Assembly: GCF_013375535.1 (NCBI RefSeq)
Contig: NZ_JABXJG010000001.1
Span: 744,001-808,000, forward strand
Source of the DNA: Sphingobium sp. 15-1
GTDB taxonomy: Bacteria; Pseudomonadota; Alphaproteobacteria; Sphingomonadales; Sphingomonadaceae
Reading direction: 5' to 3'
Length of the DNA stretch: 64,000 bases
Each line of letters begins with the position of its first letter. Position 1 is the first letter of the stretch. A program made the position numbers and the translations under genes. The notes below the pieces were generated by a model. The model was not told the origin of the DNA, made no database searches, and saw only the letters and a list, made by a program, of their open reading frames with translations. This document shows positions 249-3,105 of the stretch, in pieces.

Positions 249-2147
249 TCATACAATATCTTCGGACTGCGCCAGTTCCGCCAGGCGGCTATCATGATCC
301 AGCTTCAACTGCCGGACCCTTTGCTGCTCGGCAAAGGTATCCTCGTTGAGGTCGTCTCTCGCCCGCCGGGTGGCTTCCGCCAACGCCGCCTCCAGCTCTG
401 GTCCTTGCGCCATCACCCGAATGGCCTCGTCCAGATCGCGCTGCACGCGATCCGAGTCGGCCTTGCTTCTGTGAGGGGTGAATGTGAACGTGTCGGCCCG
501 AAGCATCCCCTTCGCCATATTATACACTTCACCTTGCCCCAATATGGTAAGGAGGCCACCTGTTTCAACTGTTTCTTTGCCGAAAGAGGCGGCGATCATC
601 ACGTTCAGCAGTTCGGCAAGCGCGGCATCAGCGATTCGCAGGCCGGAAAGCATTTCCCGGTGCAGCGCGATCTGCTCCGGATGCCGCAGCAGACTGGCGA
701 GAACGGCCCGCAGCAGCCGCTGTTCCATGCCGCTGGCGCCAATCGCCCGAGCCTCGTTCCCGGCGGGCGGGAGAGGGGGCTTCCAATTGCCCCGCCGGTC
801 CCGCTGCCATCCCGAGCGGGCGCCGCCGCCGCGCTGATGCCTGGGCGCAAAAGCCGGGCGCGCAAAGAACAGCGCATCATAACGTTCGCGGAATGCATGG
901 ACATAATGCGCCCGGACATCGGGATGCGCGATGGCGTCGGTGATCGTGGAAAGCCGTTGTTTGAGCGCGGCTTTCTGCTCCGGCGTGTCTAGTGGGGCGG
1001 CCGATTGCTCATATTTCCAGAGGCGTTCGACCAACGGTTCGGCCGCGCTCAGCACAGCCTCCATGGCCGCGGGCCCTTCGTTGCGGATCAGGTCGTCGGG
1101 GTCCTGCCCGCCCGGCAGGGTCGCAAAGGCGAGGCTCATGCCGGGCCGCAGCAAGGGCAGGGCGCGGGTCGCCGCCCGGATCGCGGCCTTCTGACCGGCC
1201 GAATCGCCGTCGAAACAGAGGATCGGCACATCGGCCATCTTCCACAGCCGTTCGATCTGATGCTCGGTGAGCGCGGTTCCGAGCGGCGCAACCGCCTCGC
1301 CAAAACCCGCCTGCGCCAGCGCGATCACATCCATATAGCCTTCGACGACGATGATCCGCCCGGCCTGGCGGCTGGCCGGTGACGCCCGGTCGATATTGTA
1401 GAGCGTCCGCCCCTTGTCGAAGAGCGGCGTGTCAGGCGAGTTCAGATATTTCGGCTCGCCCGCGCCCAGAATCCGCCCGCCAAAGGCGATGACCCGGCCC
1501 CTGATGTCCCGGATCGGCAGCATGAGGCGGCCCCGGAAACGATCGTAACTATCGCGCTTTCTGGTTTTTTCGTCATCCGGCTCGGCGCCGTCCGGATCGA
1601 TCAGCAACCCCGCTTCGACCAGCAAGGGCTCGCCCAAATCCTTGAGCGCGGTCTTGAGCCGCCCGCGCCCATCCGGAGAGAAGCCGAAGCCGAAGGTCTT
1701 GAGCGTCGCCGCTTTGATCCCGCGTTTCTCTAGGTATGCCCGCGCCTCCGCGCCTTCAATGCCGCCAAGCTGCTCTTCGAAAAAGCCCTGTGCCGCCGCC
1801 ATGACATCGTGCAGCCCCTTGGCCTGCTCCGCCCGTTTCGCCGCCCGGGGATCGGGAGCCGGGACGTCCATGCCGGCCACCTGCGCCAGCTCGTTGACGG
1901 CCTCCATGAAGGGCAGGCCGCGCTGATCGGTCATCCAGCGGATCGCATCCCCATGCGCGCCGCAACCGAAGCAATGGTAGAAGCCCTTCTCGTCATTGAT
2001 GGTGAAGCTGGGCGTCTTCTCATTATGGAAGGGGCAGCAGGCCTTATATTCACGGCCTGCCTTCTGCACCTTCACTGTCCGCCCGATCAGGGTGGAGAGC
2101 GAAGTCCGGGCACGCAATTCGTCGAGGAAAGCGGGGGAGAGACTCAT
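249..2147 (-). CDS. dnaG: DNA primase DnaG
   Basis: A 632-residue primase that makes RNA primers for lagging-strand replication. The N-terminal CHC2 zinc-binding domain is visible at about residues 38-65 (CCPFHNEKTPSF, then YHCFGCGAHGD). The catalytic core begins around residue 115 (EARAYLEKRGI). The TOPRIM metal-binding motifs follow as IIVVEGYMDVIAL near residue 265 and ILCFDGDSAGQKAA near 312. The C-terminal part, after a basic low-complexity linker (about residues 435-465), is the helicase-interacting domain. Length is normal for the family. The gene lies upstream of rpoD, and its ATG overlaps the stop of the upstream GIY-YIG gene by four bases, so the three are probably cotranscribed. 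Confidence 0.98.
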   Translation of the reverse strand: MSLSPAFLDELRARTSLSTLIGRTVKVQKAGREYKACCPFHNEKTPSFTINDEKGFYHCFGCGAHGDAIRWMTDQRGLPFMEAVNELAQVAGMDVPAPDPRAAKRAEQAKGLHDVMAAAQGFFEEQLGGIEGAEARAYLEKRGIKAATLKTFGFGFSPDGRGRLKTALKDLGEPLLVEAGLLIDPDGAEPDDEKTRKRDSYDRFRGRLMLPIRDIRGRVIAFGGRILGAGEPKYLNSPDTPLFDKGRTLYNIDRASPASRQAGRIIVVEGYMDVIALAQAGFGEAVAPLGTALTEHQIERLWKMADVPILCFDGDSAGQKAAIRAATRALPLLRPGMSLAFATLPGGQDPDDLIRNEGPAAMEAVLSAAEPLVERLWKYEQSAAPLDTPEQKAALKQRLSTITDAIAHPDVRAHYVHAFRERYDALFFARPAFAPRHQRGGGARSGWQRDRRGNWKPPLPPAGNEARAIGASGMEQRLLRAVLASLLRHPEQIALHREMLSGLRIADAALAELLNVMIAASFGKETVETGGLLTILGQGEVYNMAKGMLRADTFTFTPHRSKADSDRVQRDLDEAIRVMAQGPELEAALAEATRRARDDLNEDTFAEQQRVRQLKLDHDSRLAELAQSEDIV

Positions 2148-2479
2148 TTTGGGTGTGTCTCCCGAACTCCGTTCGTTTCGAGCGAAGTCGAGAAACGCTC
2201 ACGCGGCGGCCGAGCCAGAAGCGACACCAAGGACCAGTTCCCCACGATCATCGCCTCTTTCTTGGCTCTGGACCAGCCACCCACGATCCGTTCCGCTTCC
2301 AAAGCCTCGACCCGCGAAGAAAAGGCCTCGTTCCAGACTAGCGTCACTGGCAAGCGCCTGCGCGTGAACTGGCTGCCCTGGCCAATCAGATGCTGTCCGA
2401 TCCGATGCTCAAGATTATCAGTATGCCCGGTGTAATAGCGCCCATCCGAGCATCGCAGCATATAGGTCCAGAACGCCAT
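2144..2479 (-). CDS. GIY-YIG family endonuclease-like protein with a repeat-encoded tail
   Basis: A 111-residue protein of the small stand-alone GIY-YIG type (UPF0213/YhbQ-like). From the chosen ATG at 2479 it starts MAFWTYMLRCSDGRYYTGHT, giving the Y-x-x ... Y-x-G signature. LEHRIGQH carries the conserved arginine and LEAERIVGGW the metal-binding glutamate, so it looks catalytically intact. A longer start at 2524 is possible but adds residues outside the domain. The last 20 or so residues (ERFSTSLETNG and onward) are not part of the fold: they are encoded by a copy of a dispersed palindromic repeat also found just upstream of the gene. Its stop overlaps the dnaG start. Cellular role is unknown; DNA repair or a role linked to the repeats are both possible. 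Confidence 0.85.
   Translation of the reverse strand: MAFWTYMLRCSDGRYYTGHTDNLEHRIGQHLIGQGSQFTRRRLPVTLVWNEAFSSRVEALEAERIVGGWSRAKKEAMIVGNWSLVSLLARPPRERFSTSLETNGVRETHPK
2169..2197. repeat. Dispersed palindromic-family repeat unit inside the GIY-YIG gene
   Basis: A 29-base unit with core TTTCGAGCGAAGTCGAGAAA. It matches the two arms at 2531-2559 and 2576-2604 except for one base (GCGAAG here, GCGTAG there). It lies within the coding sequence and encodes the tail ERFSTSLETNG. Confidence 0.85.
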
Positions 2480-2526
2480 GATTTGATTATGCCGGAACAC
2501 ACGCTCATGTCGAGCCACCCGCACCC

Positions 2527-2608
2527 ACCTCCGTTCGTTTCGAGCGTAGTCGAGAAACGATATGTGAGTGCTTCCCGTTTCTCGACTACGCTCGAAACGA
2601 ACGGAGGT
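2527..2608. repeat. Perfect 33-bp inverted repeat (REP-like hairpin)
   Basis: The arms 2527-2559 and 2576-2608 are exact reverse complements, separated by 16 bases. The arm core is TTTCGAGCGTAGTCGAGAAA. It fills most of the gap between the GIY-YIG start and the 3' end of the yqeY-type gene. No transposase is encoded nearby. The structure would form a very stable hairpin on either strand, as in REP/BIME-type elements. Confidence 0.9.
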
Positions 2609-2652: not shown

Positions 2653-3105
2653 TTAAGAAAGAGCCGCCTTCACCAAGCCACTGGCCTTGCTCATATCGAT
2701 CACCGACCCGTGGCGCTCCTTCAGCGCGGCCATGACTTTGCCCATATCCTTGACGCTGGCCGCGCCCACCTCAGCCTTGATCCCCTCGATTGCGGCCTTG
2801 GTCTCATCCTCGCTAAGCTGCTGCGGCAGGAAGCTGTCGATCACCTCCAGCTCGGCCTGCTCCTTCGCGGCCAGCTCATCGCGCCCGCCGCTCTTGAACA
2901 TGTCGATGGATTCGCGCCGCTGCTTCGCCATCTTCTGGAGCACCTCGACCACGATCACATCGTCATCCGGCACATTGGAAGCGGTGCGCAGCTCAATATC
3001 CCGGTCCTTCAGCTTCGCCAGGATCAGGCGCACAGCGGCCAGCCGATCCTTTTCCCCGGCTTTCATGGCGGCGACCTGGGCGCTCTTAATCTCGTCGCGA
3101 ATCAT
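2653..3105 (-). CDS. GatB/YqeY domain-containing protein
   Basis: A 150-residue YqeY-type protein starting MIRDEIKSAQVAAMKAGEKD. It has the usual features: MKAGEKDRLAAVRLILAKLK near the N terminus, VVEVLQKMAKQRRESIDMF in the middle, and a C-terminal tRNA-binding-like module (LSEDETKAAIEGIKAEVGA, then DMGKVMAALKERHGS). YqeY is the free-standing relative of the C-terminal domain of the amidotransferase subunit GatB and is thought to help aminoacyl-tRNA handling; its exact role is unsettled. The reading frame stays open far upstream, antisense to carA, but only the part from 3105 belongs to the family, so the start is set there. It is transcribed divergently from carA. Confidence 0.93.
   Translation of the reverse strand: MIRDEIKSAQVAAMKAGEKDRLAAVRLILAKLKDRDIELRTASNVPDDDVIVVEVLQKMAKQRRESIDMFKSGGRDELAAKEQAELEVIDSFLPQQLSEDETKAAIEGIKAEVGAASVKDMGKVMAALKERHGSVIDMSKASGLVKAALS

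Follow-up and report, generated by a model that had tools for sequence, protein, structure and literature searches.

A small GIY-YIG nuclease gene and the hairpin-forming repeats that it probably targets in Sphingobium and related bacteria

Introduction

Palindromic repeats fill many bacterial genomes. In Neisseria meningitidis, the NTS/dRS3 repeats are reportedly the target of a site-specific single-strand nuclease, Ssn, which is said to be a single-domain GIY-YIG protein that recognizes dispersed hairpin repeats; Chenal et al. (Nat Commun, 2025) reportedly connected such repeats with GIY-YIG nucleases both in Neisseria and elsewhere among bacteria, where homologues are said to have differing targets. 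Here we describe a stretch of 64,000 nucleotides from Sphingobium sp. 15-1 (contig NZ_JABXJG010000001.1, positions 744,001 to 808,000; this whole stretch is called the window), in which a stand-alone GIY-YIG nuclease gene (2144..2479, minus strand) is accompanied by three copies of one palindromic repeat. By analogy, the best reading is that the window nuclease works like the Ssn nucleases of Neisseria; this single-domain protein probably targets its own family of hairpin-forming repeats.

In the accessible part of the survey of repetitive extragenic palindromic (REP) sequences by Di Nocera et al. (2013; PMC3733652), CGTC-tagged REPs are described as palindromes of 20-40 bp with an unpaired tag (CGTC, TGTC or CCTC), which are present mostly in alpha-Proteobacteria, often as opposite-orientation dimers and sometimes within genes. 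The same part states that they "apparently lack a dedicated transposase", and one of two big repeat classes is left there without an enzyme (PMC3733652). In our literature search, which most subscription papers lay outside, no report was found in which palindromic repeats are connected with genes of the GIY-YIG or DUF559 type.

Repeat units and the nuclease gene in the window

The repeat is about 31 nt long, and all three window copies are located at the one small nuclease gene. Unit 1 (2167..2197, plus strand; head CCGTTC outward, loop CGAAG) lies close to the gene end, where it encodes RFSTSLETNG on the minus strand. Unit 2 (2527..2559, plus strand) and unit 3 (2576..2608, minus strand, head outward), both with the loop CGTAG, are the first and second arms of a doublet upstream of the gene. 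As a preliminary description of this DNA had reported, the two arms make up an inverted repeat that is perfect over 33 bp; the spacer between them is 16 nt. That description had also assigned a tail ERFSTSLETNG to the third copy (unit 1 here); RFSTSLETNG is indeed encoded by it, and the leading E falls outside the repeat. The codons for PPRE (2198..2209, minus strand), which with the next codon give PPRER and thus the motif PPxER, are counted outside the repeat because the other genome copies do not share the sequence past that end.

When the 24-nt repeat core was searched with up to three mismatches, three matches were obtained in the window, all at this locus, and none in 100 shuffles. In the window genome (5.8 Mb, three contigs), 14 copies were obtained at the same threshold, three here and 11 elsewhere, and the reversed-sequence control in this genome gave none. 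Several of the copies elsewhere are again paired as inverted doublets. Among the unit sites of the Sphingomonadaceae genomes surveyed below, doublets away from nucleases often appear to pair different stem variants (for example GTGTC/GCCTC or GGGCT/CGCCCT), whereas units on the two sides of a nuclease mostly agree.

The likely product of the nuclease gene has 111 amino acids and starts at ATG 2479, a start kept among relatives, about 50 bp downstream of the doublet; a 126-aa version from GTG 2524 is merely the longest open reading frame (ORF). Pfam family PF01541 matched the 126-aa reading with E = 4.5e-15 (56.1 bits, compared with a curated cut-off of 22.6), and it is the only family found in the 111-aa protein, which therefore has a single GIY-YIG domain. 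Y6, Y16, R26 and E63, the catalytic Tyr, Tyr, Arg and Glu of GIY-YIG enzymes, are invariant across a 64-row alignment and all present in the window protein, so that the nuclease residues are intact as had been proposed. An AlphaFold2 model of the 111 residues has a mean predicted local distance difference test (pLDDT) score of 90.4, and the repeat-encoded tail is predicted poorly in it (pLDDT about 52-63). The nearest solved structures are UPF0213 proteins, both by sequence (1zg2, 2.2e-14; 1ywl, 6.7e-11) and by fold (1zg2, 2.3e-6; 1ywl, 2.1e-4), with Slx1 entries next by fold (1.2e-2 and weaker). The window protein matched no family in NCBIfam and nothing in the phage and defence libraries, and the sole PADLOC match (0.0081) belongs to a DUF559 protein. 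A homing endonuclease of an intron was set aside as a reading because the gene is free-standing, with a host gene on each side.

These two neighbours, both on the minus strand and given for context, are dnaG (primase; ORF at 249..2147) and yqeY (GatB/YqeY-type; 2653..3102), with names read from sequence. The nuclease stop codon (2144-2146) and the start codon of dnaG overlap in ATGA (2144-2147), which suggests that the nuclease and primase genes may be translationally coupled in the window genome.

Homologues and their flanking units

The 90-aa conserved core of the protein (query P0001; 2210..2479, minus strand) matched something in 154 of 249 Sphingomonadaceae genomes. Every listed gene to about E 1e-11 was included in the set of close homologues, giving 130 genes from 85 genomes, the window gene among them. 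Repeat units within 350 bp of each gene were parsed as [TC]GAG-loop-TCGA[AG] with at least four stem pairs. Units are present on both sides with heads outward at 72 genes, downstream only at 22, upstream only at 12 and on neither side at 24, so at least one flanking unit accompanies 106 of the 130 homologues. A mismatched-flank control gave 99 of 647 compared with 98 of 130 observed, and this control is inflated because unrelated genes carry the same repeat. A unit is usually placed about 16-20 bp ahead of the start and directly after or across the stop. Whether homologues keep the repeat-encoded tail had been proposed as a check, and they often do: of 94 genes having a downstream unit, 70 have it starting ahead of the stop (long run-on ORFs counted).

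The arrangement was also surveyed at 80 loci from named genomes, where units were found on both sides at 43, on one side at 24 and on neither at 13. The best match among these 80 is that of Sphingobium vermicomposti (87%), and the loci with units include Methylobacter, Rhodocyclaceae, Sulfuricellaceae and a metagenome-assembled genome of Chloroflexota.

At 32 of the 130 family loci, a TrmJ-type RNA methyltransferase gene starts within 350 bp, and in all 32 cases an in-frame run leads from the GIY-YIG gene through the repeat linker into the methyltransferase. A GIY-YIG paralogue fused to a TrmJ-type domain is present in the window genome (L015:670-1719, minus strand), and in Sphingomonas parapaucimobilis (NZ_CP155752) the nuclease and the TrmJ-type gene, which follow nrdR, have been annotated separately with a 4-nt overlap.

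Catalytic residues are intact without a stop in 117 of the 130 homologues: 99 of the 106 that have units and 18 of the 24 that lack them (p 0.015). The ratio of nonsynonymous to synonymous substitution rates (dN/dS) is 0.04-0.16 in 20 of 28 pairs, the other eight being not computable and dS often exceeding 1. Purifying selection acts on the nuclease protein.

Loop type, stems and the PPxER motif

Two loop types of the repeat were found, CYTG and CGNAG. In 71 genes, units lie within 150 bp on each side. The loop type is the same on both sides in 66 of them (CYTG/CYTG 45, CGNAG/CGNAG 21), and the remaining five comprise three discordant and two CYTG/other pairs. Agreement across the gene extends to the 4-nt stem arms, which are matched in 15 of 21 CGNAG and 38 of 45 CYTG cases (shuffled means 5.5 and 10.3, respectively).

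The loop type is accompanied by a difference in the protein. PPxER, directly following the core, is present in 31 of 33 CGNAG proteins and in none of 65 CYTG proteins, three CYTG rows with proteins shorter than 92 aa having been dropped from 68. On the protein tree, loop type needs seven changes (shuffled mean 28.0) and PPxER six. The association between loop and motif is strong, with few provable independent events. Since the repeat form shifts together with a short stretch of the enzyme, it is suggested that every such nuclease recognizes the repeat type at its own gene.

Stem pairing was examined with a search pattern in which three stem positions were unconstrained. At the most variable position, pairing is kept at 160 of 166 CGNAG sites, where 31% would be expected, and at 235 of 252 CYTG sites, where 34% would be; the stems covary, and the repeat stem is conserved as a structure. 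The putative target has a CCGTTC head, a short stem with free base-pair identity, and a fixed GAG-loop-TCGA centre.

Copy number and nuclease presence

Of the 249 genomes, 84 have CGNAG units and 138 have CYTG units. The preliminary description had proposed to check whether copy number tracks the nuclease, and in terms of medians it does: 21 CGNAG units in genomes with a CGNAG-flanked nuclease (n=33) compared with 0 in the others (n=216; rank test 1.5e-19), and 33 CYTG units with a CYTG-flanked nuclease (n=61) compared with 0 (n=188; 3.3e-20), where the tests are uncorrected for kinship and count the flanking units in. The association has exceptions in both directions, which are weighed in the Discussion.

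Four genomes (G128, G054, G108 and G224) were seen to have 38-100 units of one type and no close nuclease. Such genomes may reflect nuclease loss or another agent.

The dnaG-yqeY site

The order dnaG-nuclease-yqeY is kept in 17 of the 80 named loci, and one more locus (L185) is truncated on the dnaG side. The gene is mainly a long-standing resident of this site and not a hopping element.

In 30 genomes of the window's genus, those with loci to read among 60 with a yqeY match, the dnaG-yqeY gap contains a full-length GIY-YIG gene in seven, a partial one in two, a DUF559 gene in 12, GIY-YIG remains in two, DUF559-region remains in two (both kinds of remains judged by eye) and no gene in five, three of the latter gaps being 12 bp. 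Units and doublets vary between these orthologous gaps, and the extra unit of the doublet lies on the yqeY side or on the dnaG side depending on the genome (L276 and L281 versus L261, L263 and L277). Gene and units are gained and lost at one site, and a clean insertion at a new site is not among the gaps compared. One full-length gene in the gap (L265, genome G259) is without units, and its Tyr16 and His30 have been lost; here repeats and a catalytic residue are absent together, in a single case.

Other nuclease genes with palindromes

The window genome has six PF01541 genes. UvrC (L020) has no palindrome alongside, L015 has a CCGTTC-headed variant repeat on both sides, L017 and L018 have repeats starting CGTC on both sides (the L018 pair being 36 nt and 100% identical), and L019 has a doublet starting CGTG on the upstream side only; thus, five stand-alone GIY-YIG genes have five different palindromes. 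A similar picture was obtained in 15 exception genomes, in which 30 of 48 PF01541 matches were read as loci. An inverted pair scoring at least 17 is present at 17 of the 22 small GIY-YIG loci outside the family, mostly CGTC-headed, and CCGTTC units are present at none of the 22, three of which (L158, L161 and L169) lie near contig ends and are improperly oriented. Neither CCGTTC units nor an inverted pair were found at the seven UvrC loci of these genomes.

The DUF559 gene that occupies the dnaG-yqeY gap in 12 genomes (L268, L271, L273, L275, L278, L279, L282, L283, L285, L287, L288 and L290) was identified by motif in 11 and by Pfam in one, with four of the 12 Pfam-confirmed; PF04480 (DUF559) was found in 127 of 149 genomes. 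In a flank survey of 30 DUF559 loci (L291-L320), a CTCCC(3-8)GGGAG hairpin is located upstream at 25, downstream at 24 and on both sides at 21, compared with just 5 and 4 at the 130 GIY-YIG genes. An inverted pair scoring at least 18 spans the DUF559 gene in 22 of 30 loci versus 24 of 234 mismatched pairs. At least five copies of CCTCTCCC(3-8)GGGAGAGG are present in 51 genomes, every one with PF04480, and the 22 genomes without PF04480 have 0-4 copies (Fisher 4.9e-5, uncorrected for kinship). This nuclease gene is unrelated to the GIY-YIG gene at the same site and is possibly the more novel finding; if true, the same arrangement has evolved more than once.

Discussion

Judging from the sequences, the window nuclease very probably acts on its own repeat, and it is likely that the form cut is single-stranded. 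That this action also spreads the repeats is a tentative proposal, with doubt somewhat prevailing. The nuclease would bind the folded single-stranded repeat when it is exposed in replication or DNA entry, and would nick it at or near the hairpin, with the C-terminal PPxER segment partly reading the loop. A cut followed by copying from another repeat would account both for the spread and for the matched flanks, and the repeats flanking the gene would be kept identical to one another. Doublets, which consist of two units with heads outward, look like a gene-less form of the same element. More broadly, dedicated small nucleases may run the palindromic repeats of alpha-proteobacteria, one type each, with a code of PPxER/CGNAG versus no PPxER/CYTG, in a design that arose twice in the unrelated folds GIY-YIG and DUF559 and swaps at one chromosomal site; we consider this generalization almost evenly balanced between true and false.

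Several points weigh against the proposal that the nuclease targets its repeat. The basis is computational. No unit was parsed at 24 of the 130 genes, though some of these bear variant hairpins, and the folding of a lone unit is no stronger than that of shuffled sequences (z +0.35, +0.55 and -0.18). The link between loop and motif consists of six to seven changes on a poorly resolved tree, with one independent pair only on well supported branches, and the rank tests on copy number have the weakness stated above. Many repeats without a nuclease had been named as the finding that would argue for coincidence, and this was partly encountered: of the 164 genomes that lack a close nuclease, seven carry 30 or more CGNAG units and 11 carry 30 or more CYTG units, and G128, whose only PF01541 match is UvrC, has 38 CYTG units. 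Conversely, matching units number fewer than five in 8 of the 33 genomes that have a CGNAG nuclease and in 8 of the 61 that have a CYTG nuclease. Repeats outlive or do without a close nuclease, and such unit-rich genomes mean that the nuclease is not needed for repeats to persist.

The preliminary description had supposed that the nuclease mobilizes or maintains the repeat as REP-associated tyrosine transposases (RAYTs) do for REPs. Gene and repeat do belong together, as 72 of 130 genes are flanked on both sides and the protein motif tracks the loop, and the RAYT-like mobilizing part is unsupported; this part is weakened because the gene is mostly fixed between dnaG and yqeY. A RAYT/Y1 transposase or host replication errors might instead spread the repeats, the nuclease merely sitting among them or having been captured. 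The persistence of repeats without a close nuclease and the five Y1_Tnp matches in the window genome fit this explanation, which we regard as unlikely, since chance placement gives no protein motif that tracks loop type. RAYT as the driver was likewise judged unlikely: PF01797 is unmatched in 12 of 20 genomes chosen mostly for high copy number, and units are present at none of 15 Y1 loci. Pure coincidence, in which a common repeat landed near the gene by chance, could draw on sphingomonad genomes that may carry more than 100 units, some of them near any gene; it was rejected and has practically no probability left, being contradicted by the recurrence at homologues, by the lack of these units at the other small GIY-YIG and UvrC loci, and by the loop-motif link. 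The related suggestion of a plain insertion of the repeat at the end of the gene explains neither the recurrence, the motif link, the tails nor the copy numbers.

A different purpose for the cutting deserves serious thought, even though we hold it to be doubtful on balance: a domesticated, vertically inherited host nuclease may use the repeats as genome marks and thereby tune DNA uptake or recombination, for example by cutting single strands that enter the cell or become exposed, as is reported for Ssn of Neisseria, and repeat spread would be a by-product. The fixed dnaG-yqeY position, the low dN/dS and the in-frame joining to the TrmJ-type gene speak for a host function, whereas a full-length gene in just seven of 30 genus genomes, one with Tyr16 changed, implies frequent loss for such a function, and we know of no uptake phenotype in sphingomonads. 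This role is compatible with a nuclease that targets its own repeat and competes with that proposal only on what the cutting is for. It is quite improbable that the repeats act in RNA or transcription, as terminators or mRNA stabilizers, and regulate the nuclease's own expression. Hairpins are indeed located at gene ends and between genes, and the 82-nt doublet folds as a strong 33-bp hairpin (z -14.6), but loop and stem matched on both sides, in-frame coding use and the tracking of the loop by PPxER would be left unexplained. A known RNA element was rejected, as the only Rfam match is to a miRNA model below threshold (31.2 bits, cut-off 60) and is an artefact of the hairpin.

Should every repeat type have a small nuclease of its own, repeat maintenance would become testable with short oligonucleotides, and the loop-motif pairing predicts how a target could be switched. 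A set of natural nucleases that cut single strands at different targets would also serve as tools.

Comparison with known systems

The stand-alone GIY-YIG domains of UPF0213 type, or bacterial Slx1-like domains, are the nearest solved structures to the window nuclease. In the accessible part of PMC1564403, 1ywl and 1zg2 are treated as bacterial Slx1-family members, and that part makes no mention of palindromic repeats. With the CGTC-tagged REPs, as far as the available portion of PMC3733652 describes them, the present units share a palindrome of 20-40 bp, many copies and opposite-orientation dimers; they differ in starting CCGTTC or CCGCTC and in having a bulged stem. Two other GIY-YIG genes of the window genome lie between repeats starting CGTC. 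If the broader proposal of one small nuclease per repeat type is true, such nucleases would be the "dedicated enzyme" missing from what that 2013 survey reports (PMC3733652).

The REP/RAYT systems and their REP doublets (REPINs) resemble the present arrangement in having a palindromic repeat, inverted doublets and a nuclease-class gene flanked by the repeat. Unlike in those systems, the enzyme here is GIY-YIG and not a Y1 (HUH) transposase, and the Y1 genes are without these units. The CCGTTC-headed group, the loop-motif pairing, the recurrent repeat-coded tails, the TrmJ-type joining and, above all, the DUF559 arrangement look new. The window protein resembles Ssn, as reported, in having a single GIY-YIG domain and a dispersed repeat family linked to its gene. 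The present arrangement differs in its units, whose head is CCGTTC, whose stem is bulged and whose loop is CYTG or CGNAG; many of them also code for the tail of the protein.

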